Source of the DNA: Oscillibacter sp.
Lineage (GTDB): Bacteria > Bacillota > Clostridia > Oscillospirales > Oscillospiraceae
NCBI GenBank assembly: GCA_022797935.1
Contig: JAAWLO010000008.1
Location: forward strand, 1-55,243
Length of the DNA stretch: 55,243 nt
Direction of reading: 5' to 3'
Position numbers and translations under genes: made by a program
Shown: positions 22,409 through 38,837 of the stretch, one piece after another
Position numbering within the stretch: the stretch's first letter is position 1
Layout of the letters: every line of letters starts with the position of its first letter
Notes under the pieces: generated by a model
Databases searched by the model: none
The model's input: only the letters and a program-made list of their open reading frames with translations
What the model was told of the DNA's origin: nothing

Positions 22409-23608
22409 TCAGGCCCGGCGGCTCATCAGCCGCTTCATGGCCTGTTCCAGTCCCTCCGCGGACAGGTCGTACATGGGGAGCAGGTGCCCTAGCTGCCAGT
22501 GGGTCTGCCCCCAGTAGTCCGGCCGTTCCGGCATGGGTTCCGGGTTCAGCCAGACCAGATACGGATACTGCTTCCGCAGCCGTTCCAGCCATTCCAGACC
22601 GGAGGGGCCATAGGTCCGCCGTGTCCAGTCGTAGTGCCGTTCCCGCAGCTCATAGGGACTCATGGCGGCGTCTCCCACCAGGATGACTTTGTAAGCGCTG
22701 TCAAAGTCCCGAAGCAGCTGCTCGGTAGGCACCGCCGCGTTCCAGCGGAGTGCCGGACTGGTGTATACTTCGCTGTAGACGCAGTTGTGAAAATAGTAGG
22801 TGTGAAGCTCCTTGAAGTGGTTGGACTTCTGGGCGGCCTGAAACAGACGGGAACAAAGTCCTGCGTAGTACTCCATAGAGCCGCCGGAATCCATCAGCAG
22901 GATCACTTTTACGGTGTTTTTTCGAGGGTGCGTTTTCTGAATTTTCAGCAGTCCGCCGTTTTCACAGGTCTCGTGAATCGTGCCCTCCACGTCCAGCACG
23001 GTCTCACTGCCCTCCGCCTGGCTGGAGAGCTGGCGCAGCAGCCGGAAGGCCATCTGAAACTGGCGGGTATCCAGGGTGTTGTCCTTGCGGAAGTCCCGGA
23101 AGCGCCGTTCGCCTGCCACCATCATGGCCGTGCGGTACAGCCCCTGGCCGCCAATGCGGATGCCGTCCGGGTGCCAGCCGCTGTTTCCGAAGGGGGACCG
23201 GCCCTGGGTGCCCACCCAGTAGCTGCCGCCGTTGTGTTCTGCAGTCTGTTCCTTCAGCCGCTCTTCCAAAAGCTTCAAAAGCGCCTCGGCGCTCTCCTGG
23301 GAGAAGCCCGCCTGCATCAGCTCCTCCAGGGTCCGGCCCAGGGTTTCCGAGGGACGGTTGAGCCAGTTCAGCAGCTCCTCCGGCAGGTCGCCGTTCCAGG
23401 GGACGTCCCGGAAGAACTCCAGGAAGACCTGGTCAAACCGGTCGAAATCCGCCTCGCTCTTCACCAGCACCGCCCGGCACAGCTGGTAGAAGCCCGTCAG
23501 AGAGGACTGGTGCAGGCCGTGGGACAGGCCCTCCAGCAGGGTCATCCACTCGTCGGGGGTGACGTCCAGGCCCCGGCTTCGCAGGAGGTAGAAAAAAGAG
23601 AGAAACAT
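22409..23608 (-). CDS. CoxE-like von Willebrand factor A domain protein
   Basis: 399 residues. The C-terminal VWA domain has a MIDAS-like DSGGSM (240-245), and the N-terminal half is helical. It starts 5 nt after the stop of the MoxR ATPase with no good RBS of its own, so the two are translationally coupled. CoxD (MoxR AAA+) and CoxE (VWA) are known to mature the Mo-Cu site of aerobic CO dehydrogenase, and related pairs occur with other Mo hydroxylases. Its place between two hydroxylase clusters fits a maturation role, but this is inference; MoxR/VWA pairs also serve other complexes. Confidence 0.82.
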   Translation of the reverse strand: MFLSFFYLLRSRGLDVTPDEWMTLLEGLSHGLHQSSLTGFYQLCRAVLVKSEADFDRFDQVFLEFFRDVPWNGDLPEELLNWLNRPSETLGRTLEELMQAGFSQESAEALLKLLEERLKEQTAEHNGGSYWVGTQGRSPFGNSGWHPDGIRIGGQGLYRTAMMVAGERRFRDFRKDNTLDTRQFQMAFRLLRQLSSQAEGSETVLDVEGTIHETCENGGLLKIQKTHPRKNTVKVILLMDSGGSMEYYAGLCSRLFQAAQKSNHFKELHTYYFHNCVYSEVYTSPALRWNAAVPTEQLLRDFDSAYKVILVGDAAMSPYELRERHYDWTRRTYGPSGLEWLERLRKQYPYLVWLNPEPMPERPDYWGQTHWQLGHLLPMYDLSAEGLEQAMKRLMSRRA

Positions 23609-23612
23609 AGGC

Positions 23613-24422
23613 TCAGCGGGCGTCCCGCAGGGTCCGCAGGTCCTTGTCCTTCTTCAGCAGGACCCCGGCGAAGGGAAATTCCTTCTGAATCCGGGAGGGC
23701 TTCACGCCGCCTGCCGCCAGGGCCCGCAGCCAGTCCACCAGTTCGGAGGTGCTGGGCTTCTTGTCAATGCCCCGCAGCTCCCGCAGCCAGTAGAAGGCGG
23801 CCATGGCCTGCCGGAGCAGGTCCTCTTCCAGGTGGTCGAAGTGGACCCGGAGAATGCGCTCCATCTGTTCCTGGCCGGGGAACTCGATGTAGTGAAAAAT
23901 GCAGCGGCGGAGGAAGGCGTCGGGCAGCTCCTTTTCGGCGTTGGAGGTGATGATGACAATGGGCCGCTGTTTGGCCCGGATGGTCTCCCGGGTCTCCGGG
24001 ATATAGAACTCCATCTGGTCCAGCTCCCAGAGCAGGTCATTGGGAAACTCCAGGTCGGCCTTGTCGATTTCGTCAATCAGTAGGACCACCTGTTCCGGAG
24101 ATTGGAAGGCCTCGCCCAATTTTCCCAGCTTGATGTAGCGGGCGATGTCGTCTACGCCGTGGGCGCCGAACTGGCTGTCGTAGAGACGCTGAACCACGTC
24201 GTAGACGTAGAGGCCATCCTGGGCCTTGGTGGTGGATTTTACGTTCCAGATGATGAGCTGTTTCCCCAGCGCCTGGGCCACGGCCTGGGCCAGCATGGTC
24301 TTGCCGGTGCCGGGTTCCCCCTTGACCAGCAGAGGCTTTTCCAACGTCACCGCAATATTCACCGCCGACATGAGCTCGCTGGACGCCACATATTGGCCGG
24401 TACCGGAAAATGTCTTATTCAT
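23613..24422 (-). CDS. MoxR-family AAA+ ATPase (CoxD-like)
   Basis: 269-residue AAA+ chaperone-type ATPase. Walker A is GEPGTGKT (35-42), Walker B is VLLIDEID, sensor 1 is in IVIITSN, and the arginine finger region is FLRRCIFHY. I chose ATG 24422 with AAGGAAC upstream; the longer frame adds 44 unrelated residues. It forms an operon with the VWA gene. The presumed action is ATP-driven remodelling of a metalloenzyme together with the VWA protein. The likely clients in the window are the xanthine-dehydrogenase-type enzymes. Confidence 0.88.
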   Translation of the reverse strand: MNKTFSGTGQYVASSELMSAVNIAVTLEKPLLVKGEPGTGKTMLAQAVAQALGKQLIIWNVKSTTKAQDGLYVYDVVQRLYDSQFGAHGVDDIARYIKLGKLGEAFQSPEQVVLLIDEIDKADLEFPNDLLWELDQMEFYIPETRETIRAKQRPIVIITSNAEKELPDAFLRRCIFHYIEFPGQEQMERILRVHFDHLEEDLLRQAMAAFYWLRELRGIDKKPSTSELVDWLRALAAGGVKPSRIQKEFPFAGVLLKKDKDLRTLRDAR

Positions 24423-24627
24423 AGCAGTTCCTTTCGGTTGAAGATTCCCCGCGCTTTGGAAAACCGGCGGGGCCTCTATAAAGATACCAAAGCCGGGGCC
24501 TTCCCGCAAGAGGCAATTCCAGTTTTTCAAACAAGGCCTGATGAATGCCGGCAAATTTTTTTCAGCCAGCGAAATGACGAAACGGGCAGCCGTCCATCTC
24601 GGACAACGCCTGATAAGCCGGACTTGC

Positions 24628-25393: not shown

Positions 25394-26752
25394 TTACATA
25401 TCCAGATACTTGGCGATGACGCGGTTGGACTCCGCAGCCAGTTTTTCTTCGTCCACCGTCACCAGCCGTCCATGTTCCACCGTCACGCGGCCATTGACCA
25501 CAGTATAATCCACCGCGTCCTTGAGGCCGACGGTGCCGAACATGGACTGGGGATCGTACATAGCGCCCACCAGCTCCAGACGGTTTCCGTCCACTAGGAA
25601 GAAGTCGGCGCACTTGCCCACTTCCAGGGAGCCGATTTCTTTCTCACGGCCCAGTACCCTGGCGCCGCCCATGGTGGCGATTTTCAGCATGTCATAGCCG
25701 GAGGGGGCCTTGTCGCTGGAGTTCAGCCGGTGGAGCAGATAGGCCACCCGCAGCTCCTCCAGGAGGTTGGAGCCGTCGTTGGAGGCGGAGCCGTCCACGC
25801 CCAGGCCCACCGGGATGTCCATTTCCAGCATCTCCGGAATCCGGGCAATGCCGGAGGAGAGTTTCATGTTGGAGATGGGGCAGTGGCACACGCCGCTCTG
25901 GGTCTCCGCCAGGATTTTCAGCTCCTCGTCGTTGAAGTGGATGCCGTGGGCGTACCACACGTCGGAGCCGGTCATGCCCAGGGACTGCATGTAGGCCACC
26001 GGGCGCATGCCCGCCTTCTCCAGGGTGTAATTCTCCTCGTCGATGGTCTCGCACAGGTGGGTGTGAATGCGGACGCCCAGTTTCCGGGCTATGATGGCGC
26101 TCTCCCGGTAGAGGTCCGCCGTGACGGTGAAGGGGGAGCAGGGGGCGATGGCCACCCGGCACATGGACTGGAAGGAGGGATCGTGATAGGCCTTGACGAC
26201 TTCCTCGTAGCTGCGGAGAATCTCGTCAATGGTCTGCACCACCTCATCCGGCGGCAGGCCGCCGTCCTTGTGGGAACGGTTCAGAGCGCCCCGGGAGAGG
26301 TACATCCGCACGCCCAGCTCCTTGGCGGCCTCCGCCTGGGCACCGTAGGGGTCCCAGCCGGTGTTCTTGTGGACCAGATAGTGATGGTCGAAGACGGTGG
26401 TGCAGCCGTTTTTCATCAGCTCTCCCATGCCCGTCAGGCTGGAATAACGGATGACGTCGGGATTGACCCGCTTCCAGATTTCGAACATGGTGTTCAGCCA
26501 GTCAAAAAGCTCCTGGTTCTGGGCCTGGGGCAGATTCCGGGAGAAGAGCTGGAAGAGATGGTGGTGGGTGTTGACCAGGCCGGGATAGCAGAACATGCCG
26601 TTGGCGTCGATGACCTGGTCGGCCTCCGGCGCGTCGGGACCGATGGAGCGGATAAGGCCGTCCTCGGCGTAGAGATTGACGTTCTGATATACCCGGTCCT
26701 CGCCGTCGCAGGAGACCAGGGCGCTGATGTTCTTCACAAGCAGACGCTTCAT
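25394..26752 (-). CDS. Amidohydrolase, 8-oxoguanine deaminase-like
   Basis: 452-residue metal-dependent amidohydrolase of the AtzB/8-oxoguanine deaminase group. Metal ligands are visible in NTHHH (61-65), HTHLCE, YAHGIHF and the GVDGSASND aspartate segment. Family knowledge: members deaminate 8-oxoguanine to urate, or guanine and other aminated N-heterocycles (SsnA, hydroxydechloroatrazine hydrolase). It is the last gene of the run with the second three-subunit hydroxylase, so hydroxylation followed by deamination of one substrate is likely. I chose ATG 26752, with AAGGAGAGG upstream; the longer frame adds 16 residues. The exact substrate is not settled. Confidence 0.85.
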   Translation of the reverse strand: MKRLLVKNISALVSCDGEDRVYQNVNLYAEDGLIRSIGPDAPEADQVIDANGMFCYPGLVNTHHHLFQLFSRNLPQAQNQELFDWLNTMFEIWKRVNPDVIRYSSLTGMGELMKNGCTTVFDHHYLVHKNTGWDPYGAQAEAAKELGVRMYLSRGALNRSHKDGGLPPDEVVQTIDEILRSYEEVVKAYHDPSFQSMCRVAIAPCSPFTVTADLYRESAIIARKLGVRIHTHLCETIDEENYTLEKAGMRPVAYMQSLGMTGSDVWYAHGIHFNDEELKILAETQSGVCHCPISNMKLSSGIARIPEMLEMDIPVGLGVDGSASNDGSNLLEELRVAYLLHRLNSSDKAPSGYDMLKIATMGGARVLGREKEIGSLEVGKCADFFLVDGNRLELVGAMYDPQSMFGTVGLKDAVDYTVVNGRVTVEHGRLVTVDEEKLAAESNRVIAKYLDM

Positions 26753-26775
26753 AACAATGCCTCTCCTTTTTCGAA

Positions 26776-27267
26776 TCAATTTTGCTGCTGGGACGCGCAC
26801 AGGGATGAGAGAACGTCCGCCGCCATCTGGACGGCCTTGGTAATCTGCTCATAGCTGGCGCAGCGGCACATGTTGCCGGACAGAGCGGTTTGAATTTCCT
26901 CCCGGGTGGGGTGGGGATTCCGCTGGAGCAGGGCGTAGGAGCTGAGAATCATGCCGGGGGTGCAGAAGCCGCACTGGACCGCACCGGCGTCGACAAAGGC
27001 CTGCTGAATGGGGTGAAGGCGGCCATTTACCGCCATGCCCTCAATGGTGGTGATGGACTTGCCGTCCGCCAGGGAGGACAGATACAGGCAGGAGGTAGTC
27101 GGCACGCCGTCAATCAGGACGGTACACGCGCCGCATTCGCCTACCTCACAGCCCCGTTTGGTGCCGGTGAGGCCCAGACGGACGCGGATGGTCTCCAGAA
27201 GGGTTTCACCGTCCTCCACCGCGCCGCTCCAGGGGCGGCCATTGATCGTCATTTGAATCGTGTGCAT
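26776..27267 (-). CDS. Molybdenum hydroxylase, 2Fe-2S subunit (second set)
   Basis: 163-residue Fe-S subunit. The plant-type cluster uses C40, C45, C48 and C60; the helical cluster uses the VQCGFC and MCRC cysteines. The last motif reads CRCASYE rather than the more usual CRCTGYE. ATG 27267 lies one base after the stop of the FAD gene (TGAGATG), with GGGAGGTG upstream, so translation is coupled. Electron carrier between the Mo subunit (28152-30437) and FAD. Confidence 0.93.
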   Translation of the reverse strand: MHTIQMTINGRPWSGAVEDGETLLETIRVRLGLTGTKRGCEVGECGACTVLIDGVPTTSCLYLSSLADGKSITTIEGMAVNGRLHPIQQAFVDAGAVQCGFCTPGMILSSYALLQRNPHPTREEIQTALSGNMCRCASYEQITKAVQMAADVLSSLCASQQQN

Positions 27268-27268
27268 C

Positions 27269-28147
27269 TCAGAAAACACCTCCCGCCGTCTCATAAGCCG
27301 CCCGGAATGCCCGCTTGGCCAGGGTTCGAATTATCTGTTCGCGGTACTCCTTGGAAGCCCGCCAGGAGCTTCGGGGGGACGCGGAGCGCAGCGCCAATTC
27401 ACCAGCTTCCTCCAGGTCTGCCAGCGTGGGGCGGCGGCCAAGAAGGAAGGTCTCGGCCTCCGCTGCCCGGACGGGAGTGGGAGCCGCCACGCCCAGGGCA
27501 ATGGCCGCCTTGCTGACCGTGCCGTCCTCCGCCAGTTCGCAGACGGCGGCGCAGCCAATCAGGGCCAGGTCCATGGCCTTCCGGGTGCTGAATTTGAGGT
27601 AGCAGTCCCCGTGGCGGGGGGAGGCGGCAGGGGGGAGCTCCAGATGGAGCAGCAATTCCGTGCTCTCCCGTTTGACGCGGCCGGGGCCGCTGTAGAAATC
27701 CGTGATGGGGACCCGCCGGGTTCCGGCGGCGCTTTGGAGCACCAGAACGGCGTCCAGGGCGAAGAGCCCCGGGGCGCTGTCGGCAGAGGTAGCCCCGTTG
27801 CAGACGTTGCCGCCGATAGTAGCCCGGTTTTGAATCTGCGGACCGCCCATAGCCAGGGCGGCGGTGCGCAGCATGGGGGCCCGGACGGCAGCCTCCGGGC
27901 TGGCGGCCAGCTGGGTAAAGGTGGTGCGGGCGCCGATTTCCAGGACGCCGTCCTCCCGCAGGCGGATGCCCTCCAGTTCCGGAAGCTTCTCCAGGCTCAT
28001 CAGGCGCAGGTTTTCCAGCTTTTTGTTGCGCATGGCTACCAGCACGTCCGTTCCTCCGGCCAGAGGTCTGGCGTCGGGGTGGGCGGACAGGAAGGCCAGC
28101 GCTTCCTCCAGCGTCTGGGGAATATACAGTTCCGATACGGAATACAC
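27269..28147 (-). CDS. Molybdenum hydroxylase, FAD subunit (second set)
   Basis: 292 residues with the FAD motifs LAGGTDVLVAM and GGPQIQNRATIGGNVCNG. I chose GTG 28147, just after the stop of the upstream Mo subunit and with AAGGAAGGGG upstream. A longer frame from 28183 would overlap the Mo-subunit gene by 32 nt and add 12 residues not typical of the family. Middle gene of the second three-subunit set; gene order is Mo, FAD, Fe-S as in the first set. Confidence 0.9.
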   Translation of the reverse strand: MYSVSELYIPQTLEEALAFLSAHPDARPLAGGTDVLVAMRNKKLENLRLMSLEKLPELEGIRLREDGVLEIGARTTFTQLAASPEAAVRAPMLRTAALAMGGPQIQNRATIGGNVCNGATSADSAPGLFALDAVLVLQSAAGTRRVPITDFYSGPGRVKRESTELLLHLELPPAASPRHGDCYLKFSTRKAMDLALIGCAAVCELAEDGTVSKAAIALGVAAPTPVRAAEAETFLLGRRPTLADLEEAGELALRSASPRSSWRASKEYREQIIRTLAKRAFRAAYETAGGVF

Positions 28148-28151
28148 AGCG

Positions 28152-30437
28152 TCACACCCCTTCCTTGTTCCGGCCCTGCGCAATGGCCGCGTAAACCCGC
28201 TCCGGCGTCAGGGGATTGGCGTGAATGGGGATTCCCAGGGCGTCGTACACCGCGTTCTGAATGGCGGCGGCGGGGGAGATGTTGGGCGGTTCGCCCAGGC
28301 TCTTGTTTCCATAGGCGGAGGTGGGCTCGCAGGTATCCACAAAATGGGTATCCAATGGCGGGATATCCGCAAAGGTGGGAATCTTGTAGTCCAGCAGGGT
28401 GTCATTGTGTACCCGTCCGGTTTTGGGGTCAATGAGAATCTGCTCCATGGTGCTGAAGCCGAAGCTCATGATGCTGCCGCCGTCCAGCTGGCCCGCGGAG
28501 GTCAGGGGATTGATGCGGACGCCGCAGTCCATACAGACCACCAGCTTCTGGACCTCCAGCTTGCCGGTTTCCGTGTCCACGGCCACAATGGCAAAGGCGG
28601 CGGCGTAGTTCAGGGCGTTGTCCGTGGGAATGTAGCCCACTTCATGGCAGCAGGTGCCGCCCTCGGTCAGGTGGTATACCAGCTCTTCCGCTACTTTCCG
28701 GAGATCCGCCAGTTCCCGTCCGGTCTCCCGTTCGATTACCTTGCCCATTCGGGTGTCCAGCTCTCCGGCAGGACGTTCCAGCATCTTGGAAGCCCGCTCC
28801 AACAGCTGGGCCTTGCATTTCAGGGCGGCCTGCTTGACGGCGTTGCCCGTCACATAGGTCTGACGGGAGGCATAAGCCCCGGCGTCAAAGGGACAGAGGT
28901 CGGTGTCGCCCTCCACCACCGTCACCCAGTCCAGGGGAATGCCCAGGGCCTCTGCGGCAATCTGGGCCATAGCAGTATCCGCCCCCTGACCGATTTCGGT
29001 GCAGTTGATGAAGAGGGTGGCGCTGGCGTCGTCCTGAACCATGACCCGTGCGCCGGAAAGTTCCACGCTGTGAGGGAAGACGCAGGAGTTGTAGGAGCTC
29101 AGCGCCATTCCGATGCCGTACTTGACAGGTCCGTCGTCCTTCGGCGGGTTTTTGCGGAATTCTTCGTAGCCAATGCGCCGCAGGCCCTCGTCGATGACCT
29201 GGGGAAGACCGCAGCTGTAGACTTCACCGGCGGCGTAATTCCGCTTGTCGCCCAGCTTGTAGAGGTTTTTCCGGCGGAACTCCAGCGGGTCCATGCCAAC
29301 GGTGCGGGCCACATGGTCCATGTGGGACTCGTTGGCAATGCAGTACTGCGGGATGCCGTAGCCCCGCATGGCGGCGGCAATGAGGATATTGGAATAGACC
29401 GTCCGGCCCCAGAAGCGCATGTTGGGGCAGGGATAGAGGCTGTCGCACTGACCGAACTGGTTCAGGATGACCGAGTGACCATGAGAGGCATAAGCGCCGG
29501 TATTCTGGACCACCACGATATCCCGGGCCACCAGCTTGCCGTCCTTGTCCACGCCGGTGCGGAATTTGAAACGAGTGCCGTGGCGGGTGCGGGTGCAGGC
29601 CAGATTTTCTTCCCGGGTCAGCTCCAGCATGACGGGGCAGCCGCATGCTTGCGCCAGGACGCAGTTGATCTGCTCATAAACCGGCTCCTGCTTGCCGCCG
29701 AAGCCGCCGCCGACGGTGAGCTTGACAATGCGGATCATCCGCCGGTCCAGGCCGAGGATGTAGGCCAGACGCTCCCGCATGATGCTGGGCACCTGATTGG
29801 AGACGTAAACCGTGAGCCGCCCGGTTCCGGGGTCCGGAACCACGACGGAGATGTGGGGTTCGATCTGGGCGTGGGTGACGATGGGGCTGTCGTATTCGTC
29901 TTCCACCACGAAGGCAGCGCTCTTCAGCGCCCCCTCCAGGTCGCCGAATTCCTGAACGATCTCCCCGGCCAGGTTGCCGGAGCCCTCATGAATCTCCATG
30001 GCGTTCTCCGCCAGGGATTCCTCGGGCGTCAGATAAAAGGGCAGCTCCTCATATTCGACCTCAATGAGGGCCAGCGCCTGTTCGGCAATTTCCCGGGTCT
30101 CTGCCGCCACTGCCGCCACAGGGTCTCCCACGTAACGGACATGGGTCTCCAGAATCAGAGAGTCCAGAGGGGAGTCAAAGGGCAGAGGATGACCGCAGGT
30201 GGTGTGAGGAATGTGGGGCACGTCTTCGGCGGTCAGAACGCAGTGAACGCCGGGCAGAGCCTTGGCCTTGGAGACGTCTATGCGCTTGACCAGGGCGTGG
30301 GCGTAGGGACTGCGGAGAATCTTGCCCTGCAGCAGATGCTCGAACTTCATATCACCGACGTAGACCGCCCGTCCGGTAACTTTGTCATAAGCGTCCAGCC
30401 TTTTGGCGGAGACGCCGACAACGGAATGCTGTGTCAA
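28152..30437 (-). CDS. Molybdenum hydroxylase, molybdenum subunit (second set)
   Basis: 761-residue catalytic subunit. It has the RLDAYDKVTGRAVYVGDM start, VGGGFGGKQEP, AAAMRGYGIPQ and the C-terminal KSLGEPP with the catalytic Glu. The start codon is TTG (30437), with AAGGAGGG 8 nt upstream. It resembles the first xdhA throughout but is clearly divergent, so it is not a recent duplicate and may act on a different purine or N-heterocycle. It heads a run ending with the 8-oxoguanine-deaminase-like gene. A leader hairpin lies just upstream at 30457-30477. Confidence 0.91.
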   Translation of the reverse strand: MTQHSVVGVSAKRLDAYDKVTGRAVYVGDMKFEHLLQGKILRSPYAHALVKRIDVSKAKALPGVHCVLTAEDVPHIPHTTCGHPLPFDSPLDSLILETHVRYVGDPVAAVAAETREIAEQALALIEVEYEELPFYLTPEESLAENAMEIHEGSGNLAGEIVQEFGDLEGALKSAAFVVEDEYDSPIVTHAQIEPHISVVVPDPGTGRLTVYVSNQVPSIMRERLAYILGLDRRMIRIVKLTVGGGFGGKQEPVYEQINCVLAQACGCPVMLELTREENLACTRTRHGTRFKFRTGVDKDGKLVARDIVVVQNTGAYASHGHSVILNQFGQCDSLYPCPNMRFWGRTVYSNILIAAAMRGYGIPQYCIANESHMDHVARTVGMDPLEFRRKNLYKLGDKRNYAAGEVYSCGLPQVIDEGLRRIGYEEFRKNPPKDDGPVKYGIGMALSSYNSCVFPHSVELSGARVMVQDDASATLFINCTEIGQGADTAMAQIAAEALGIPLDWVTVVEGDTDLCPFDAGAYASRQTYVTGNAVKQAALKCKAQLLERASKMLERPAGELDTRMGKVIERETGRELADLRKVAEELVYHLTEGGTCCHEVGYIPTDNALNYAAAFAIVAVDTETGKLEVQKLVVCMDCGVRINPLTSAGQLDGGSIMSFGFSTMEQILIDPKTGRVHNDTLLDYKIPTFADIPPLDTHFVDTCEPTSAYGNKSLGEPPNISPAAAIQNAVYDALGIPIHANPLTPERVYAAIAQGRNKEGV

Positions 30438-30543: not shown

Positions 30544-32049
30544 TCAGCCGCCGGATGCGCCTCGGGAGGCCATTTCCGCGGCGGCAGCCTCCAGAGCAGC
30601 CTGCTCCTGGGCAGCCAGAGCCGCTTCCACCTTCAAATCCTCTTCTTCCTTGGGCAGAAGCGCGTTGAGAACGATAACGAGGATGGCGCAGGGGATGATG
30701 CCGCAGCCGCCAATGATCAGCTGGAGGAAGCCCGGCAGGCCGGCGGAGGCGGCGGCGTCGCTGCCAATGCCGTAGCCAAGGCCGATGGCGGTGGCGACGA
30801 TAACATTGGCCCGGGCGGTGAAACCGCCCTTGGAAATCAGGGAGAAACCGCTGCAGAGGATCTGGCCGAACATGAGCACTGTAGCGCCGCCCAGCACAGA
30901 GTTGGGCATGATGGAGACCACGGCGGAGAGCTTGGGCAGGAAGCCGCACAGGCACAGGAAGATGGCGCCGGTGGCAACGGTCATGCGGTTGACAACCTTG
31001 GTCATGTTCACCAGACCCACGTTGGTGGCGTAGGTGGTGTTGGGGAGCACGCCCAGCACGGCGGCGGCGCTGGAGCCCAGAGCGTCGCAGAAGAGACCGC
31101 CGGTCATCTCGCGGTCCGTCACGTGCCGGCCCAGGCCGATTTCCGTGATGGCGTTGAGGCTGGCCATGCTCTCAATGGTCATGGAGGCATAAATCAGGCA
31201 GATGGGGATGATGGCCCGGATGTCGAATTTCAGTCCGACGGGGAACAGCTTCGGCAGGGAGAACCAGGAGGCGTCCGCCACAGAGGACCAGTTGACGGCC
31301 CAGGAGGCGGTGACCTGAGAGACGGCGCCCGCTGCGTCCACCACTTCCACGGTGGTGGGCATGGTGGCGGTCATGATGGCGGCGGCGATATAGCCGGCAA
31401 TGATGCCGATCAGCACGCCGCAGCTCTTGACCATACCCTTGCCGAACCGGTCCAGAACCAGGCTGATGGTAAACACGAGGATGCCCAGGAACAGGTTGGG
31501 GGCGGAGCCGTAGTCCGCCGCGCCGGAGCCTCCGGCGAAGCTGTTCATGGCGACGGGAACCAGAGAGATGCCCACGGCAGTCAGCACGGTGCCGATAACC
31601 AGGGGCGGGAAGAGCTTTTTAATCCGCTGGTAGAAGACGGCAATGACGATTTCCACCAGACCGCCCAGCAGTGTGGCACCCAGGATAGTGGAATAAGCCT
31701 CTACGCCGCCGCCTACCAGAACGGCGACGCTGATATTCAGTCCAATGTAACCGGCGGCGCAGCCCATGACAATGGGCAGTTTCGCACCGAATTTCCACAC
31801 GGGGTAAAGCTGGAGCAGCGTGGTCAGGCCGGCGATGAGCATGGCGTTTTGCAGAATCATAATCAGCAGCGGACTGCCGGCCTCGATTCCGCAGAAGGCA
31901 CAGATAATCAGCGGAGCGGTGACATTGCCCACGAGCATGACCAGCACGTGCTGCATGCCCAGGGGAAGCGCAATTCGCAGCGGAAGAGTGCCGTCCAGGG
32001 TATAAGGTGTGCCCTGCTTTTTCGTTTTTGTGCTCTCGTTCACAATCAT
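30544..32049 (-). CDS. NCS2-family xanthine/uracil permease
   Basis: 501-residue membrane transporter with about 14 predicted helices. The PxxxxMGxxxxY-like and NTTYATNVGLV segments, plus IYASMTIESMASLNAITE in the substrate helix, place it in the nucleobase-cation symporter 2 family (PbuX/UraA/UapA type). It probably imports xanthine, urate or a related purine. The C-terminal tail is long and Glu/Ala-rich. It lies 28 nt downstream of the DUF1638 gene, and all three genes from 34264 to 30544 run together, physically linking purine uptake to corrinoid activation. No purine riboswitch was seen. Confidence 0.93.
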   Translation of the reverse strand: MIVNESTKTKKQGTPYTLDGTLPLRIALPLGMQHVLVMLVGNVTAPLIICAFCGIEAGSPLLIMILQNAMLIAGLTTLLQLYPVWKFGAKLPIVMGCAAGYIGLNISVAVLVGGGVEAYSTILGATLLGGLVEIVIAVFYQRIKKLFPPLVIGTVLTAVGISLVPVAMNSFAGGSGAADYGSAPNLFLGILVFTISLVLDRFGKGMVKSCGVLIGIIAGYIAAAIMTATMPTTVEVVDAAGAVSQVTASWAVNWSSVADASWFSLPKLFPVGLKFDIRAIIPICLIYASMTIESMASLNAITEIGLGRHVTDREMTGGLFCDALGSSAAAVLGVLPNTTYATNVGLVNMTKVVNRMTVATGAIFLCLCGFLPKLSAVVSIMPNSVLGGATVLMFGQILCSGFSLISKGGFTARANVIVATAIGLGYGIGSDAAASAGLPGFLQLIIGGCGIIPCAILVIVLNALLPKEEEDLKVEAALAAQEQAALEAAAAEMASRGASGG

Positions 32050-32077: not shown

Positions 32078-32746
32078 TTATATGTTCACCGGTCCGGGGA
32101 AGAAAGACTCCTCGTCCAGCCGGCCGCCGGGAGGAACGACGATGAATTCGCCGTCCCATGGACCAGAAAACAGCTTGCAAAGTGCCCGGAAGGTTCCGCC
32201 GCAGGCCGTATACTCCAAATCCAGAATCTCTGCCGTCTCCTGGGCAATCGGGAGGAAGGCCTCCGCCGGCACCGCGCCGGTATCCAGAAAACTGACATAA
32301 CGGTAGTTGCGCACCATGGCGCGGCACATGCGCCGGGCCTTGGCCTCCCCATAGCGGGCGAGGCAGCGGTCATAGTCCTTCAGAAGACCGCTCCGCTCCT
32401 CCAGAAAACCGGGGGAGGCATAAAGCGTGCGGATATCCACCTGGCCGGGGTCTCCCGGCTGAAAACTGCGGAAGAGGTGGATGCAGTCGGCGAAACGGGG
32501 CAGCACCAGGGCGGCGCCCCGGGCCTCCAGACCAACCGGCGCGTTGCCGCACTGGGCAAACGCCAGCAGAATCTGTTCCGCCTCAATTTGGTCAATGTGG
32601 GACTGAAGGCCGGCGCGAAGCCGGTCCGGGTAATTGTGGAGCTCCCGTTCCACCCAGATCACGTCACAGTCCAGCGCCGTTTCCGCCAGAGCGGCGCGAA
32701 TTTCATGGGCCAGCATTTCGCAGGCCAGTACTACGGTTTTTTTCAT
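32078..32746 (-). CDS. DUF1638 family protein
   Basis: 222 residues, matching DUF1638: it starts KKTVVLACEMLAHEI and has AFAQCGNAPVGLEA, ALVLPRFADCIHLF and a YTACGGTFRALCKLF block. Several Cys/His residues could bind metal or a corrinoid. The biochemical role is unknown; from general knowledge, DUF1638 genes are often near corrinoid methyltransferases. Here the ATG is 3 nt after the stop of the corrinoid activator, so they are coupled, and the purine permease follows. Confidence 0.83.
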   Translation of the reverse strand: MKKTVVLACEMLAHEIRAALAETALDCDVIWVERELHNYPDRLRAGLQSHIDQIEAEQILLAFAQCGNAPVGLEARGAALVLPRFADCIHLFRSFQPGDPGQVDIRTLYASPGFLEERSGLLKDYDRCLARYGEAKARRMCRAMVRNYRYVSFLDTGAVPAEAFLPIAQETAEILDLEYTACGGTFRALCKLFSGPWDGEFIVVPPGGRLDEESFFPGPVNI

Positions 32747-32749
32747 AGG

Positions 32750-34264
32750 TCAGAACAGCATGGCCTCCACATAGCGTTTCTTGAAATAGGCGTCAGTGCT
32801 CAGGTCAATGGCCCGGACTGCCTGGGCGATGTCCTGAGCCTCGGTGAGCCGGGCGGTGTTTTGCAGGATGTTTCCTGCTCCTGCTCCGGCGGCGTTGCCG
32901 ATAGCCGTGGTCCGGCCCGCCAGGTCCGGCGGAATCAGTCCAATGGCCTGGGCGGAGGAGACATTCAGGTAACTGCCGAAGCCGCCGCACAGAATGATTT
33001 GGTCCAGGGCGTCGTAAGAGAGGCCGCAGTGGCGCAGAAGAACATCCATGCCGCCGCGGATTGCGCCCTTGGCCAGCTGGAATTGGCGGATGTCTTTCTG
33101 CGTCACAAAGACGCCGCTGTCCCCCAGAGGGGCTTTGCCGCCGAAGGAGGCGGCCATGCGTCCCCGTTTATCCAGGACACCCGTCTCCAGGAAGGCCGCC
33201 ACGGCGTCCACCAGACCGGAGCCGCACAGGCCTGCCGCCGGTGCGTCGTCCACGGTGCCATAGCGGATTTGCCCGTCTTCGGTCCACACGGTGGAAATCG
33301 CGCCGCTCTGGGCGCTCATGCCCGCAGAGATACCGGACCCTTCAAAGGCCGGTCCCGCTGCGGTGGAGGTGCCGATCATCCCATCCGGGGTGCGCAGAAC
33401 CATTTCGCCATTGGTGCCAATGTCCACCAGCAGGAGATTTTTGCTGCTGGAGGCAATGCCGCTGGAGAGAACGCTGCAGGTGATGTCCGCGCCTACATAG
33501 GCGGAGATGCACCGGGGCAGATAGGCCCGCAGGCCGGGGAAGCGGGGCAGGTCCAGGGAATGCCAGTCTCCGAAGACGGACTGGGGCGTAAAGGGCGCCA
33601 TTGCCAGGGAACGGGGTTCCAGCCCCGCCAAAAGGTGCAGCATGGTGGTGTTGCCGGTGACGCACAGACCGCTGAGCGCCTCCGTGCCAATACCGGCCTT
33701 TTCGCAGAGGGCGTACAGGAGCGCATCCAGCTGTCCCCGGATGGCGTCCTGCAAAGGGGTCACGGTGTGTTCGTTGCAGTAGGCAATCCGGGAGAGGACA
33801 TCCGCGCCATAGGACCGCTGGCTGTTAAGAGAGCCCTGCACGGCTATGGGTGTGTTCCCAGTCCGGGAGAACAGGTATCCCACCACCGTGGTGGTGCCAA
33901 TGTCCACTGCCACGCCGTAGCCGCCGTCGTAAATGGGGGCCGGCGGCAGAGGGTCCGCCCGGTAGTCGGCGAGAATCCGGTCGGTTCCGCCGGACAGCGT
34001 GCGCAGGGAGCAGTCCCCCTCCACCACCGTGAAGCAGGCCAGACGCTGCCCCTGGGGAGCGCCGTCCAGCATCTGCCGTTCCCGTTCGCTCATGGCGGAG
34101 AGCTGCCCCTGGGCCCACACGCGGCATTTTCCGCAGCTGTGCTGCCCGCCGCAGGGCAGGGATAGCTCCACTCCCGCGGCGTGGAGGGCCTCCGCCAAGG
34201 TCATGCCGGGACTGGCCGGGACCTGAGAGAGCCGTCCGTTGTGGTCTATGGTTACGGTTGCCAT
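32750..34264 (-). CDS. Corrinoid-activating ferredoxin/ASKHA protein (RamA/RACo-like)
   Basis: 504 residues. The N-terminal 2Fe-2S domain (about 1-85) has C38, C44, C47 and C77; the C-terminal ASKHA-fold part (DUF4445 type) has DIGTTTVVG (121-129), DIGTNGE and GGFGSYLN. Members use ATP to reduce inactive Co(II) corrinoid proteins to Co(I), as RACo does for the acetyl-CoA-pathway corrinoid protein. The RBS AAGGAGG is strong. It is the first gene of the run with DUF1638 and the NCS2 permease, divergent from TetR. The corrinoid protein at 36616-37320 is the obvious client. Confidence 0.9.
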   Translation of the reverse strand: MATVTIDHNGRLSQVPASPGMTLAEALHAAGVELSLPCGGQHSCGKCRVWAQGQLSAMSERERQMLDGAPQGQRLACFTVVEGDCSLRTLSGGTDRILADYRADPLPPAPIYDGGYGVAVDIGTTTVVGYLFSRTGNTPIAVQGSLNSQRSYGADVLSRIAYCNEHTVTPLQDAIRGQLDALLYALCEKAGIGTEALSGLCVTGNTTMLHLLAGLEPRSLAMAPFTPQSVFGDWHSLDLPRFPGLRAYLPRCISAYVGADITCSVLSSGIASSSKNLLLVDIGTNGEMVLRTPDGMIGTSTAAGPAFEGSGISAGMSAQSGAISTVWTEDGQIRYGTVDDAPAAGLCGSGLVDAVAAFLETGVLDKRGRMAASFGGKAPLGDSGVFVTQKDIRQFQLAKGAIRGGMDVLLRHCGLSYDALDQIILCGGFGSYLNVSSAQAIGLIPPDLAGRTTAIGNAAGAGAGNILQNTARLTEAQDIAQAVRAIDLSTDAYFKKRYVEAMLF

Positions 34265-34333: not shown

Positions 34334-34383
34334 AAAAAGATAAGCGCCGTGAAAAGGCTTGAAACGGAAAGGAATTGCAGGTA

Positions 34384-35010
34384 ATGGAACACGAGGAAAG
34401 ACAGCTGTCCAACAGCATGAGAGACCGAATTATGGAAGCAACCATGGATGTTGTCTATGAGAAGAAAATCAGCGGAACCTCTCTGCGGGGCATCGCCAAC
34501 GAAGCGGGCATCCTGCCCTCCAACATCCAATATTACTTCCGAACAAAGAAAGAGCTGTTTGTCTCCCTGCTGACCAGCGTGCTCTCCGAAATCCGCGCGG
34601 GGCGGAAAGAGATGCTGGACCAGTGCGGAGACACGCTGGCGGACAAGCTGAATGTCTTCTTCCGGCAGAAACGGGAGACCATCTCTCATAAAAAGAAATA
34701 CGAGGCCATCCAGGTGGACTTCTGGGTCCAGGGGCTTGCGGACGAGGATATCCACGCCTATTTCCGTTCCTCTTACGAAGGCTGGCGGCGGGACATCCAG
34801 GCCATTCTGGAAGAGCGCTGCCCGGATTTGGACCCGGTGCGGAAGCAGTACATCCCTTATCTCATGGTGTCCATGATGCTGGGAGCCGCCATGCAGTATT
34901 ACATTGAGGATTCCATGGACCTGGACCCGTATTTCTCCACTTGCCTGGAAGCGGTACTCCGCACAATTGAGGATACCCCCGGCAACACCGGGAACGCTCC
35001 GGTCGCCTGA
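34384..35010 (+). CDS. TetR/AcrR-family transcriptional regulator
   Basis: 208 residues. The N-terminal helix-turn-helix is ISGTSLRGIANEAGILPSNI followed by YYFRTKKELF (about 25-60); the C-terminal ligand domain is helical. I chose ATG 34384, about 11 nt after AAAGGA; the TTG at 34375 would have too short a spacing. It sits between the corrinoid-activator/permease run and the methyltransferase operon, so it is the best candidate for binding the two TTTGTACG-type palindromes. The inducer is presumably the methylated substrate, but this is inference. Confidence 0.9.
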   Translation: MEHEERQLSNSMRDRIMEATMDVVYEKKISGTSLRGIANEAGILPSNIQYYFRTKKELFVSLLTSVLSEIRAGRKEMLDQCGDTLADKLNVFFRQKRETISHKKKYEAIQVDFWVQGLADEDIHAYFRSSYEGWRRDIQAILEERCPDLDPVRKQYIPYLMVSMMLGAAMQYYIEDSMDLDPYFSTCLEAVLRTIEDTPGNTGNAPVA

Positions 35011-35170: not shown

Positions 35171-36616
35171 TTACAGGATGATGGTCCTTCTGCCGTTGGA
35201 GACCTTACCCATGTAGCACTCGCCGAAGGCCTTGTCCAGAGGCATACCCAGGTCGATCAGCTCATTGCGAACCCGGTTGAACAGCTCGATGTAGTTGTCC
35301 TTGGGCTGCTGCTTCTGAAGATCGAAGCACTCGCTGATGGGCAGACCCTTGTCGGGGCTGGTGAGCTTTTCCTCGTACTTGGGCAGAATCTTCTTGGCCA
35401 GTTCATTGGCCTCTTTCCGGGTCATGCCGGCGCAGCTCTTGAAGACGTCGCCGCTCCACCAGCATTCCACGGGAGTGATGTAGTCGGTATACCGGCCGCC
35501 GGCGGAACGGGGCTGGGTGGTCTTGGACGCGCCGGAGACGCAGTGGTTCATCAGGCCGACAGCGGCTTCATACATGAACATCTCGGTGCAGGGACCAGCG
35601 GTCTCGTTGACGATCTTGTTGCGCATGAAGCTGGTGTTGCGGCTGATGGCCTGGATGGAAACGCTGTTGGCCCAGACAGCCTTGCGGCCGCAGTTGCCGA
35701 AGAGCTGGATGTCATAGACGTAGCTGGAGGTATAGTCAGACTGCATGATGGTGGGAATCAGCAGGTCATTGGCCACGCAGGCCAGAGCCGCGCCCTCGGG
35801 GGGACCGGCATAGCCGCCGATGTAGCTGAACGCGCCCACGCGGAGCTTGTGGCCGTAGTTGAGGCCCTGAATGATCCGGTGGAAGTTGGAGAAGGTGCAC
35901 TTGAGTTCCACGGGGCACAGGCTCATGGTCACGTTGCCGCGGCCCGCCACCACGGGAGCGCCGCCGAGATGACCGTACTCCGTTACCGCGCCGGCGACGC
36001 CGGTGCAGGCCATGCCGGGACGGCCGGCACGCCACAGGGCCTCCTGCTTCAGGTGGCTCTCATAGTTGCCCATGAGGGTCTCATAGGGAGTGCCGCTGCG
36101 GAAGGTACGGCCAAAGACCGTGGCCAGGGTGGGACCGTGAAGCACATCTACCAGCTTGGGGTGCTTGACAATGCCCTGAACCAGGGGGAGGTAATTCTCC
36201 TCGCTGCAGACAATGCCCAGGGAGGAAGCCACCAGAGGCTTGTAGGGATCCTCCGGCCGCCGGGGCTTCATGATGACCTGATCCTGACCCTCGCCCAGGA
36301 TGTTGACATCCTGATAGTCGCGGATCGTGGCCAGGAGCTCATCCTCGGTAATCTTGATGACGCGCTCCGTGTCCTCGCAGTACATGCCCAGCTCCAGCGC
36401 CAGCTCCCAGCCGGCCTTGAAGAAGGTATCGGCCAGGTCGTCGTCGCAGTTGATGGGATTGTCCACGTCCAGCGTGTTCTGAAGATTGTACTTCTTCAGG
36501 ATGCCCTTGATGGTCTTGGGAATGATTTTGGTATCCCATTCCTTCATGGGGATGACGGGACCCTGATACGCTTTATCCAGGCTGTCCAGCAGCCGCTGCA
36601 CTTTGATATTATACAT
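35171..36616 (-). CDS. MtmB-family methyltransferase lacking pyrrolysine
   Basis: 481 residues. The sequence follows the monomethylamine:corrinoid methyltransferase family (MtmB): EWDTKIIP, the FKAGWELALELGMYCEDTER block, AGRPGM (197-202), IGGYAG, AGPCTEMFMYEAA and a C-terminal ISECFDL. In archaeal MtmB the active-site pyrrolysine (UAG, residue 202) follows AGRPGMGV; here the aligned residue is Thr205, codon ACC at 36002-36004, and there is no in-frame stop. About 20 extra residues follow at the C-terminus. Expected role: transfer of a methyl group from an unknown N-methyl substrate to the corrinoid protein next door. The ATG overlaps that gene's stop by one base. Confidence 0.87.
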   Translation of the reverse strand: MYNIKVQRLLDSLDKAYQGPVIPMKEWDTKIIPKTIKGILKKYNLQNTLDVDNPINCDDDLADTFFKAGWELALELGMYCEDTERVIKITEDELLATIRDYQDVNILGEGQDQVIMKPRRPEDPYKPLVASSLGIVCSEENYLPLVQGIVKHPKLVDVLHGPTLATVFGRTFRSGTPYETLMGNYESHLKQEALWRAGRPGMACTGVAGAVTEYGHLGGAPVVAGRGNVTMSLCPVELKCTFSNFHRIIQGLNYGHKLRVGAFSYIGGYAGPPEGAALACVANDLLIPTIMQSDYTSSYVYDIQLFGNCGRKAVWANSVSIQAISRNTSFMRNKIVNETAGPCTEMFMYEAAVGLMNHCVSGASKTTQPRSAGGRYTDYITPVECWWSGDVFKSCAGMTRKEANELAKKILPKYEEKLTSPDKGLPISECFDLQKQQPKDNYIELFNRVRNELIDLGMPLDKAFGECYMGKVSNGRRTIIL

Positions 36617-37320
36617 CAGGCGACAACCTCCTCAGAGTCTACCAGCAGGGTCTCGCCCTGGCCGGGCTTACCCTCGGCGACAAGCTTCTTGCACATTTCC
36701 ACGCAGTCGAAGGCAGTACGGCTCCAGCCGTCGGCCCCCATCTTCTGGGCGAATTCCGGGGTTACCGGGCCGCCGCCCACGATAAAGTGGTATTTGTCGC
36801 GGTTGCCGGTGTCCTTGATGTACTGGAGGGTATCCTGGAGGTAGGGCAGGGAAGTGGTGAGAAGAGTGGAAACGCCAATGATGTCGGCGTTGACCTCTTT
36901 GGCCTTCTCGATGAAGGTCTTGACCTCCACGTCGATGCCAAGGTCCACCACCTCGAAACCGTTGACTGCCAGCAGGGCGCTGACCACGTTCTTGCCGATA
37001 TCGTGCACGTCGCCCTTGGCCTGACCCAGAACGACCACGCCCTTTTTGGAGGCGGCAGCGTCCTCGCTGCTCATGTTCTCGAAGATGATTTCGATAACGG
37101 CGCTCATGGCGTCGCCGGCCAGGACCAGCTCCGGCAGGAAGGCTTCGCCCGCAGAATACTGCGCGCTGACCACGTCCATACCGGCAGAAGCTCCTTCGTT
37201 CAACACAGTCAGGGGCGGGATTCCGGCCGCCAGCGCTTCCTTGACGGCCTCCACCGCATCGTCCTCTTCACCCTCGGCTACCAGCGCTGCGAGCTTTTTC
37301 AAAATCTCGTCGTTTGCCAT
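36616..37320 (-). CDS. Methyltransferase corrinoid protein (MtmC/MttC-like)
   Basis: 234 residues. The N-terminal helical cap (1-90) is of the methionine-synthase B12-binding type. The B12 domain has the base-off motif DVHDIG (104-109) with H106 as lower cobalt ligand, VSTLLTTS and a GGGPVTPEFAQ loop. It carries the methyl group between the MtmB-like protein (next gene, 1-nt overlap) and the MtaA-like acceptor enzyme (divergent gene at 37776). The RBS AAGGGGGA is good. The promoter and operator lie at 37405-37459. Confidence 0.95.
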   Translation of the reverse strand: MANDEILKKLAALVAEGEEDDAVEAVKEALAAGIPPLTVLNEGASAGMDVVSAQYSAGEAFLPELVLAGDAMSAVIEIIFENMSSEDAAASKKGVVVLGQAKGDVHDIGKNVVSALLAVNGFEVVDLGIDVEVKTFIEKAKEVNADIIGVSTLLTTSLPYLQDTLQYIKDTGNRDKYHFIVGGGPVTPEFAQKMGADGWSRTAFDCVEMCKKLVAEGKPGQGETLLVDSEEVVA

Positions 37321-37404: not shown

Positions 37405-37422
37405 ACTGTACGACCGTATGAA
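37405..37422. promoter_or_regulatory. Palindromic operator of the methyltransferase operon
   Basis: ACTGTACG (37405-37412), N2, CGTATGAA (37415-37422): it matches 12 of 16 arm positions of the perfect palindrome at 37689-37706. It lies 8 nt downstream of the -10 box, at the expected transcription start. Confidence 0.6.
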
Positions 37423-37688: not shown

Positions 37689-37706
37689 TTTGTACGGGCG
37701 TACAAA
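37689..37706. promoter_or_regulatory. Perfect palindromic operator of the MtaA-like gene
   Basis: TTTGTACG-N2-CGTACAAA, 8-bp perfect arms, 10 nt downstream of the -10 box. This is the size and symmetry of a TetR-family site, and the position fits repression. Confidence 0.7.
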
Positions 37707-37775: not shown

Positions 37776-38837
37776 ATGATGAAGCCGAAAATGAACATGC
37801 GCGAGTGGAAAGAGACCGTGATTCACACCCCCTATAAGAAAGGCGCTCCGGTGCTGTCGTTCCCGGTGGTGCAGCTGATGGACATTACGGTGCAGCAGCT
37901 GATCAGCTCCAGCGATTTGCAGGCCGAGGGCATGAAAAAGGTGGCGGACCGCTGCCCGTCCCTGGCGTCCCTGAGCATGATGGACCTGACCGTGGAGGCG
38001 GAGTGCTTTGGGGCGGAAGTGCGCTTTGCGGACAATGAGATTCCCGCAACCATTGGCGCGGTGGTCCGCAGTGTGGACGATGCCAATGCGCTGGCGGTTC
38101 CCCCGGTGGGCGCGGGCCGGACGCAGACTTATATTGACGCCGCCCGGAAGGCCAGTGAGTTGATTACGGACCGTCCGGTCTTTGCTGGAATTATTGGGCC
38201 GTTCACCCTGGCGGGCCGTTTGATCGGCATTACCCAGATTATGAAGGCCGTGAAGAAGAACCCGGAGATGGTCCATATCACCCTGCGCAAGGCCACGGAG
38301 TTCATCATTGCCTACGCCAAGGCCTACAAGGAACAGACAGGAGTCAATGGCTTTGTCATGGCAGAGCCTATGACGGGCCTCATCAGCCCCAAGATGGCGG
38401 AAGTCTTCTCCGAGCCCTACTCCAAGGAAGTGATTGACGCCGTGCAGGATGAGGAATTCATTGTCATCTACCACAACTGCGGCAACGAGGTGGTGTCGCA
38501 GGCGGAGTCCATTTTCCGTCTGGGCGCGGAGGGCTATCATTTCGGCAATGTGGTGAACATGCTGGACATTCTGCCCAAGATGCCCGCCGACTCCCTGGTC
38601 ATGGGCAACATTGATCCCTCCGGCTACTTCTACAGCAAGGGCCCGGAGGATATGCGCGGCGCGGTGCGGGAACTGCTGGAACAGTGCGCTTACTATCCCA
38701 ACTTCGTGATCTCCTCCGGCTGCGACATTGCGCCGGTGGCGAAGTGGGAGAACATTGACGCGTTCTATGAGGAGATTGCGGCGTTCTATGAGGCGCATAA
38801 AATCTCCGGCGGCCGGCTGAAGGCCCCGCTGATTTGA
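37776..38837 (+). CDS. MtaA-like methylcobamide methyltransferase (UroD fold)
   Basis: 353 residues of the uroporphyrinogen-decarboxylase/MtaA family. The zinc ligands of methylcobamide:thiol methyltransferases are all present: H233-x-C235 (in IYHNCGN) and C316 (in SSGCDI). True UroD lacks this set. In methanogens the acceptor is coenzyme M; in Clostridia related proteins probably pass the methyl to tetrahydrofolate or another thiol. AAGGAGGA precedes ATG 37776; ATG 37779 is equally possible. It is divergent from the corrinoid/MtmB-like operon and shares its palindrome. A terminator follows at 38855-38878. Confidence 0.9.
   Translation: MMKPKMNMREWKETVIHTPYKKGAPVLSFPVVQLMDITVQQLISSSDLQAEGMKKVADRCPSLASLSMMDLTVEAECFGAEVRFADNEIPATIGAVVRSVDDANALAVPPVGAGRTQTYIDAARKASELITDRPVFAGIIGPFTLAGRLIGITQIMKAVKKNPEMVHITLRKATEFIIAYAKAYKEQTGVNGFVMAEPMTGLISPKMAEVFSEPYSKEVIDAVQDEEFIVIYHNCGNEVVSQAESIFRLGAEGYHFGNVVNMLDILPKMPADSLVMGNIDPSGYFYSKGPEDMRGAVRELLEQCAYYPNFVISSGCDIAPVAKWENIDAFYEEIAAFYEAHKISGGRLKAPLI

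Follow-up and report, generated by a model that had tools for sequence, protein, structure and literature searches.

We analysed a 55,243-nucleotide stretch of Oscillibacter sp. DNA, referred to here as the window, which carries a gene for a pyrrolysine-free homologue of the monomethylamine methyltransferase MtmB. Loci are denoted below by L numbers and genomes by G numbers, with G000 being the source genome, whose assembly is 84% complete. The gene lies at 35171..36616 on the minus strand, with its start codon at 36616 and its stop at 35171, and encodes a protein of 481 amino acids that we propose to be an N-methylpurine:corrinoid methyltransferase. An earlier note on this DNA, made from the sequence alone, had given the coordinates correctly, leaving the strand unstated, and had placed the protein in the MtmB family. 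This placement is borne out by a match to PF05369 that spans residues 10-458 of the protein and positions 4-450 of the 450-position profile (E 2.5e-73). The score of 247.9 bits, where the cut-off is 25, makes the protein a full-length family member, and the AGRPGM segment and AGPCTEM block pointed out in the note are common to it and MtmB. No NCBIfam model matched the protein at E <= 0.001, and neither did PF06253, the MttB superfamily (COG5598). PF05369 is the single Pfam match at the same threshold, which rules out another family such as MttB. The closest solved structures found with phmmer against the PDB are the Methanosarcina barkeri MtmB1 entries (1l2q and 1tv2, approximately 1e-46), with no other convincing relatives.

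The active-site pyrrolysine of MtmB is replaced by threonine in the window protein. Codon 205 is ACC (36002-36004), and two alignments agree that T205 sits at the pyrrolysine position. The phmmer alignment to M. barkeri MtmB1 (1l2q, E 8.8e-47) sets T205 in AGRPGMACTGV opposite X202 in AGRPGMGVXGPE, and a 46-row MAFFT alignment puts residue 205 in one column with M. barkeri residue 202. The terminal TAA is the sole stop codon of the gene, so that no in-frame TAG is present. The earlier note had read the residue, its codon and the uninterrupted frame in the same way, and had called for the family alignment and tree that now place the protein inside the MtmB family with Thr205 in the Pyl202 column.

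Orthologues were sought with exact peptide patterns over 84,980 genomes, one per species, in a scan that was not exhaustive. It returned 11 orthologous loci, 78-96% identical to the window protein, all with threonine at the pyrrolysine site. The carriers are metagenome-assembled genomes (MAGs) assigned to Clostridia, Eubacteriales, Clostridiales, Oscillospiraceae, Hungateiclostridiaceae, Lachnospiraceae, Equihabitans, Spirochaetaceae and Treponema. Among 99 relatives of the window the gene is present in the source genome only, and a recent gain is therefore likely; PF05369 likewise occurs in one of 291 genomes of the class, namely this one. Around the other carriers, themselves included, the family was found in 4/145, 4/295, 5/58 (four over the cut-off) and 8/198 genomes. 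Whole-genome searches of the 11 carriers gave 24 MtmB matches, including one true TAG-bearing pyrrolysine gene in G392.

The tree was computed with IQ-TREE from the 46 aligned rows, after removal of matches shorter than 420 amino acids (for example L039, L064, L075 and L078-L086) and of two artefactual read-throughs (the TAG versions of L066 and L016). The window protein belongs to a clade of 12 rows (clade A), which joins a sister clade of nine rows (clade B, 39-43% identical to the window protein) and the single row L028 with 100/100 support. This group is separate from the pyrrolysine rows (100/100) and from 19 others. The joining of L028 to clade B may be a long-branch effect, as the IQ-TREE run itself warned. 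Members of both clades occur together in nine of the 12 clade-A genomes; G000 and G387 hold clade A alone, and G394 holds clade A and the distant L015. Clostridia and Spirochaetes are intermixed inside both clades, which points to horizontal transfer or to misbinned contigs. Contamination of a single bin is excluded as the origin of the arrangement, since L002, from a Clostridia MAG, has a very similar layout with all five purine genes described below at 77-86% identity.

The pyrrolysine column separates these groups clearly. Threonine fills all 12 clade-A rows, and it is therefore fixed and no sequencing error; a pyrrolysine enzyme whose TAG was mutated in one genome is ruled out on the same count. 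Clade B has three serines, three alanines, two prolines and one threonine, L028 has methionine and L015 glycine, while the 19 other pyrrolysine-free rows have leucine (ten), methionine (four), isoleucine (four) or valine (one) and the four pyrrolysine rows all have X. Threonine is thus a mark of clade A, shared by one clade-B row, and is not typical of pyrrolysine-free MtmB homologues in general. Other positions change with it. The positions of M. barkeri E229, Q333 and Y335, which do not vary among the four pyrrolysine rows, hold M or Q, I and N, respectively, in clade A, and E259 is replaced by glycine in clade A and kept as glutamate in clade B; we take all four residues to lie near the pyrrolysine or active site of 1l2q. 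Eight residues (W70, Y185, H246, R259, Y301, N337, R370 and W386) are fixed in both clades A and B and not in the other rows, and may line the substrate pocket.

The pyrrolysine machinery follows the TAG-bearing genes. PylS (TIGR02367) exceeds its curated cut-off in three of 14 genomes (G392, G836 and G861), exactly those with a TAG-bearing MtmB, and in none of the other 11 of the 12 clade-A genomes. TIGR02367 is unmatched in the source genome, within its 84% complete assembly. Weak matches below the cut-off appear in five of the 11 PylS-negative clade-A genomes and are probably other synthetases, because 12 of 14 control genomes show them too.

The MtmB-like gene is embedded in a corrinoid methyltransferase system, all on the minus strand except for one divergent gene. 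Immediately upstream, at 36616..37320, lies the gene for a 234-residue cognate corrinoid protein (PF02310/PF02607) with the cobalt-ligand motif DVHDIG, of the DxHxxG form, at residue 104. The stop codon of the corrinoid gene shares one base with the MtmB start, which places both genes in one operon. The protein scores 193 bits on TIGR02370, under the cut-off of 215.3. A 504-residue protein of the reductive activator of corrinoid proteins (RACo) type is encoded at 32750..34264 (PF14574 1e-65, PF17651 1.2e-40), and none of the NCBIfam activator models matched it above cut-off. A DUF1638 gene (32078..32746, PF07796 5.5e-29) follows the activator gene after 3 bp and recurs in several related loci. 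The divergent plus-strand gene at 37776..38837 encodes a URO-D-family methyltransferase resembling MtaA, MtbA and CmuA (PF01208 2.8e-47) with the HxC...C motif at H233, C235 and C316, and scores 102.5 bits on the mtaA_cmuA model, under the cut-off of 235.4. An activator and an acceptor-type methyltransferase therefore both lie near the pair, as the earlier note had reported of all three partners, and the role of the URO-D protein as methyl acceptor enzyme is a prediction. A Wood-Ljungdahl acceptor as a general rule is ruled out, with CdhC in only three of the 12 genomes.

URO-D-type methyltransferases of about 452 amino acids also adjoin or lie near clade-A genes elsewhere (L003:11487-12845, L009:7881-9236, L004:7833 and L007:9400). 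The protein in L009 has a C-terminal stretch weakly resembling thioredoxin-like families, below the cut-off, that might hint at a thiol as methyl acceptor. The source genome has in addition an MttB homologue (L103, G000:C116:13395-14825), close to which lie a corrinoid protein, a RACo-type activator and URO-D relatives; the 10 kb around it hold no purine genes.

On the other side of the MtmB-like gene, the window holds a set of genes for purine uptake and breakdown. Reading leftwards, the order is corrinoid protein, MtmB-like protein, a divergent TetR-family regulator, RACo, DUF1638, NCS2 permease, XdhA-, XdhB- and XdhC-like subunits, and amidohydrolase. The genes from RACo to the amidohydrolase form one run, with gaps of 3, 28 and 106 bp up to the XdhA-like gene and overlaps thereafter. 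The NCS2 permease (30544..32049, minus strand, PF00860 3.5e-68) is of the xanthine/urate type; it scores 348.7 bits on TIGR03173, under the cut-off of 414.15, and its best PDB relative is a uric acid-xanthine permease (7.8e-36). The three subunits of a molybdenum hydroxylase, all on the minus strand, are an XdhA-like large subunit (28152..30437, NF043082 818.3 bits, cut-off 780), an XdhB-like FAD subunit (27269..28183, PF00941 and PF03450) and an XdhC-like 2Fe-2S subunit (26776..27294, PF01799 and PF00111). The amidohydrolase (25394..26800, minus strand) is of the 8-oxoguanine deaminase type and just passes NF006055 with 535.9 bits against a cut-off of 532. Its best PDB relatives are 3hpa, named simply 'amidohydrolase' (9e-122), and 7ww2, named '8-oxoguanine deaminase / hydroxydechloroatrazine ethylaminohydrolase' (7.4e-110). 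The family, residue and corrinoid partners of the earlier interpretation thus stand, and the purine context, which these five genes of the window display and which gives the best hint of the substrate, had been overlooked in it.

The XdhA-like proteins near clade-A genes in L002, L003, L055 and L051 score 809-886 bits, compared with 1194 for the canonical XdhA in L042, and these low-scoring subunits possibly form a distinct subfamily with a substrate of its own. Past one DUF6273 gene downstream of the xanthine dehydrogenase (XDH)-deaminase operon, at 22409-24554, are genes for a CoxE-type VWA protein and a MoxR-type ATPase, possible maturation factors of the molybdenum hydroxylase.

We compared the surroundings of all MtmB places, counting as purine genes the XDH subunits, the amidohydrolase and the NCS2 permease found within 10 kb by tblastn at 1e-8. 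The several MtmB genes of G936 and of G905 were counted as one place each, as were the two MttB genes of G394. Purine genes accompany 12/12 clade-A places and 9/9 clade-B places, 0/1 for L028 and 1/1 for L015, set against 0/15 other MtmB places and 0/3 pyrrolysine places. Clades A and B with L028 (21/22) differ from the MtmB controls (0/18) by Fisher's test at p 1.7e-10, and still differ when at least two purine genes are required (15/22 versus 0/18, p 5.9e-6), values that are too small because the A and B places share one region in G388, G389, G392 and G395. The direction of the association is plain despite this non-independence. L015, which has one adjoining deaminase-like gene, entered neither side of the test. 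Some controls lie on short contigs, and among the nine with at least 15 kb of flank none has purine genes. Six MttB matches occur in four of the 12 genomes, and their five places lack purine genes too (0/5); two of the five have only 1-2 kb of flank and three more than 17 kb. This excludes the idea that purine genes generally accompany the corrinoid methyltransferases of these genomes.

The association extends to operon structure and to further purine genes. By our own gene calls, the MtmB gene shares a co-directional run (no gap above 400 bp) with a purine gene at nine of 12 clade-A and nine of nine clade-B places, and in L008 the order is corrinoid protein, MtmB, XdhB, XdhC and amidohydrolase. 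The XDHs near clade A are of several kinds and the transporters vary (NCS2 in the window, a Bmp ABC transporter in L055), so that the link to purines recurs with varying components. In L052 the clade-B gene has near it SsnA, YgfK and a selenium-dependent XDH, all above cut-off, and YgeY, carbamate kinase and YgfK lie downstream of that in L050, where the carbamate kinase exceeds the cut-off of a subfamily model only and the rest exceed their own; YgfK was seen at these two loci only. The genes at both loci belong to the reductive anaerobic uric acid pathway (PMC12507026). SsnA itself exceeds its cut-off in nine of the 12 clade-A genomes and in one of 14 control genomes, the controls being genomes other than close gene-less relatives. 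The source genome is one of the nine, with 541.6 bits against a cut-off of 455.5 at G000:C149, outside the window.

Several of the other MtmB homologues deserve mention in their own right. The third lineage, that of L028 (L040:5683-8434, G390; 41% identity), has methionine at the pyrrolysine site and adjoins an NCS1 cytosine/purine-type permease, and no relative of the window corrinoid protein was found on its contig. The distant homologue of G394 (L047, G394:C72; approximately 31% identity) has glycine there, and the next gene encodes an amidohydrolase with a score of 561 on the 8-oxoguanine deaminase model and 68% identity to that of the window, a possible second link between MtmB and purines. 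In G905, a genome from the Spirochaete phylum search with eight MtmB matches in total, fragments among them, three homologues stand in tandem (L094, G905:C87).

The TetR-family regulator gene, divergent from the MtmB-like gene (34375..35010, plus strand, PF00440 1.6e-7), may control the locus. A homologue 78% identical to it adjoins the gene in L002, and homologues of 30-35% identity adjoin the clade-B genes in L042, L045, L009/L052 and L012/L053 (tblastn). A motif search found the perfect palindrome TTGTACGGGCGTACAA, a candidate TetR operator, before the URO-D gene (37690..37705), and a second copy with three mismatches before the corrinoid gene (37406..37421), just downstream of promoter-like hexamers of the corrinoid-MtmB operon (37459-37431). 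When the whole window was shuffled 100 times, at least two sites of the form TTGTACGNNCGTACAA arose in 14 cases. L002 has the motif twice ahead of its corrinoid gene, a count reached in 0 of 100 shuffles; in eight other clade-A upstream regions the palindrome is poor, with 3-6 mismatches. Taken together, these motifs suggest TetR control of the locus through the palindrome as putative operator. No riboswitch in the window reached the Rfam gathering threshold. In a scan of 13 sources, cobalamin riboswitches precede the corrinoid-MtmB genes in L008 and L053, and the sole other match at the gathering threshold is a second cobalamin riboswitch in L008.

The locus resembles several known systems and coincides with none of them. 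It shares with M. barkeri MtmB (1l2q and 1nth) a Pfam family over nearly its full length, the two sequence blocks, a corrinoid partner and an activator. It differs in having threonine for Pyl202, no TAG and changed residues at the E229, E259, Q333 and Y335 positions, and, unlike the pyrrolysine system as a whole, it combines a genome lacking a PylS match with an MtmB-like gene in a purine neighbourhood. The non-pyrrolysine MttB superfamily (MtgB, MtcB, MtyB and others) is described as carrying out pyrrolysine-free corrinoid demethylation of activated N-methyl groups and is a separate protein family (PF06253). The stepwise N-demethylation of methylxanthines described for Pseudomonas putida CBB5 (NdmA and relatives) is the task we propose here. 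The CBB5 enzymes are oxygen-dependent Rieske enzymes, whose chemistry differs from corrinoid transfer. The reductive uric acid pathway (XdhD, YgfK, SsnA, HyuA and YgeW/X/Y) has some of its genes near the relatives and SsnA in the source genome; as described it includes no methyltransferase step, and its account makes no mention of the term 'corrinoid' (PMC12507026).

Pyrrolysine-free MtmB homologues as such are already known. The statement in the earlier note that they are hardly described has been overtaken by MtqB of Methanococcoides methylutens Q3c, reported in 2026 to demethylate tetramethylammonium and choline (PMC13044021). MtqB, like the window protein, is a non-pyrrolysine MtmB homologue with a cognate corrinoid protein; unlike it, MtqB is a methanogen enzyme for tetramethylammonium and choline, a comparison made here by description and not by sequence. 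The same paper gives the function of non-pyrrolysine MtmB proteins outside the pyrrolysine and MtqB-like clades as unknown (PMC13044021). Among the titles we surveyed, with most subscription journals and preprints outside coverage, none linked a non-pyrrolysine MtmB to purines or dealt with corrinoid-dependent demethylation of methylpurines.

We favour, with somewhat better than even confidence, the reading that the window protein is a corrinoid-dependent, pyrrolysine-free N-demethylase of a methylated purine that feeds anaerobic purine catabolism. Its substrate is probably something other than free monomethylamine. Candidate purines would be methylxanthines, guanines methylated on the ring (7-methylguanine, for example) and methylated 8-oxopurines; the gene context points to a purine and not to which one. 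The base would be imported by the NCS2 permease, or by other transporters in the relatives. The MtmB-like enzyme would then bind it in a predicted TIM barrel and transfer its methyl group to the Co(I) of the co-encoded corrinoid protein, from which the URO-D-type protein would pass it on to a carrier. RACo would re-reduce inactivated cobalt. The demethylated purine would finally be deaminated, and then either oxidised or reduced, by the amidohydrolase and the molybdenum hydroxylase and enter anaerobic purine breakdown.

This proposal would account for the loss of pyrrolysine. Transfer of a methyl group to Co(I) requires a nitrogen able to act as leaving group. In MtmB, pyrrolysine is thought to activate the leaving nitrogen through a methylamine adduct (PMC2933860, PMC9842639), and the substrates of MtqB and of the non-pyrrolysine MttB enzymes are reported to be already quaternary (PMC13044021). 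Thr205 could replace pyrrolysine because a charged or protonatable ring nitrogen would already be a good leaving group, so that the pyrrolysine adduct would be unneeded. On chemical grounds, a purine of the 7-methylguanine type could be activated by charge or protonation of its imidazole ring.

A number of points weigh against this reading, starting with the shared A and B regions behind the p values and the choice of SsnA controls given above. An N-methyl group on a neutral lactam is a poor methyl donor. The purine link is one of gene association, and its strength varies from place to place. The corrinoid-MtmB pair lies outside the purine-gene run in the window, L002 and L050, and the permease alone carries the link in G395 and at the clade-B places of G385, G386 and G390. 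L028 is without all five genes and has, by Pfam, an NCS1 cytosine/purine permease next to it. The window XdhA-like subunit, at 818 bits against a cut-off of 780 and a canonical score of 1194, may act on a substrate other than xanthine. As for the final methyl acceptor, CdhC/AcsB occurs in three of the 12 genomes and was not found in the 84% complete source assembly. Finally, relatives of the amidohydrolase are described as hydrolysing N2,N2-dimethylguanine and would set methylamines free instead (PMC13054789).

The last point leads to an alternative that we consider unlikely, in which the amidohydrolase releases methylamine by cleaving exocyclic N-methyl groups from a modified guanine or adenine, and this methylamine is then the substrate of a pyrrolysine-free demethylation by the MtmB-like protein. 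The amidohydrolase does resemble 8-oxoguanine deaminase and hydroxydechloroatrazine ethylaminohydrolase, the cluster of AtzB and 8-oxoguanine deaminase is reported to include N2,N2-dimethylguanine hydrolases that release dimethylamine (PMC13054789), and MtqB, itself pyrrolysine-free, is reported to have weak methylamine activity (PMC13044021). However, Pyl202, E229, Q333 and Y335 are all replaced in clade A and E259 is changed to glycine, and four of the nine clade-B places have the permease without deaminase genes of the window type or XDH genes within 10 kb.

There is similarly little probability, in our view, that the protein acts on a small quaternary or methylated amine such as choline or tetramethylammonium, used in the manner of MtqB, with the purine genes as neighbours through shared nitrogen scavenging. 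The MttB of the source genome, with its corrinoid protein, activator and URO-D relatives, belongs to a set that we take to be typical of quaternary-amine use, and tetramethylammonium and choline are the substrates of the one non-pyrrolysine MtmB homologue whose function, by the account of its 2026 paper, has been demonstrated (PMC13044021). Set against this are the specificity of the purine association (absent from 18 other MtmB and five MttB places) and the recurrence of varied XDHs and transporters with the clade in two phyla. Least probable of all is a non-purine N-methyl heterocycle, for example trigonelline (N-methylnicotinate), which the XDH-like enzyme would hydroxylate: quaternary pyridiniums donate methyl groups well and the XdhA-like protein is an outlier (818 versus 1194 bits) whose PDB relatives include nicotinate dehydrogenase (3hrd), but the permease belongs to the xanthine/uric acid type, the amidohydrolase scores above the 8-oxoguanine deaminase cut-off, and uricolytic SsnA, YgfK and YgeY lie near the clade-B relatives in L052 and L050.

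Returning to N-demethylation of a methylated purine, we put forward tentatively, and with more doubt than belief, a wider version of it. Clades A and B, and perhaps L028, may be regiospecific pyrrolysine-free MtmB paralogues that each remove one methyl group from polymethylated purines supplied by plant methylxanthines or RNA-derived methylguanines. They might then form an anaerobic counterpart of the Ndm enzymes, join cobalamin-dependent methylotrophy to purine fermentation, and have spread horizontally among Clostridia and Spirochaetes.

The window gene represents a real, conserved and pyrrolysine-free branch of the MtmB family for which a specific substrate prediction can be made. If the prediction is true, the branch would provide an enzyme for the N-demethylation of purines without oxygen, of which we found none among the literature titles surveyed, and a function would be assigned to a clade of non-pyrrolysine MtmB homologues. 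It would also explain why pyrrolysine is dispensable, the substrate being already activated. Bacteria with such a locus would then join the possible sinks of caffeine-type compounds and modified nucleobases.

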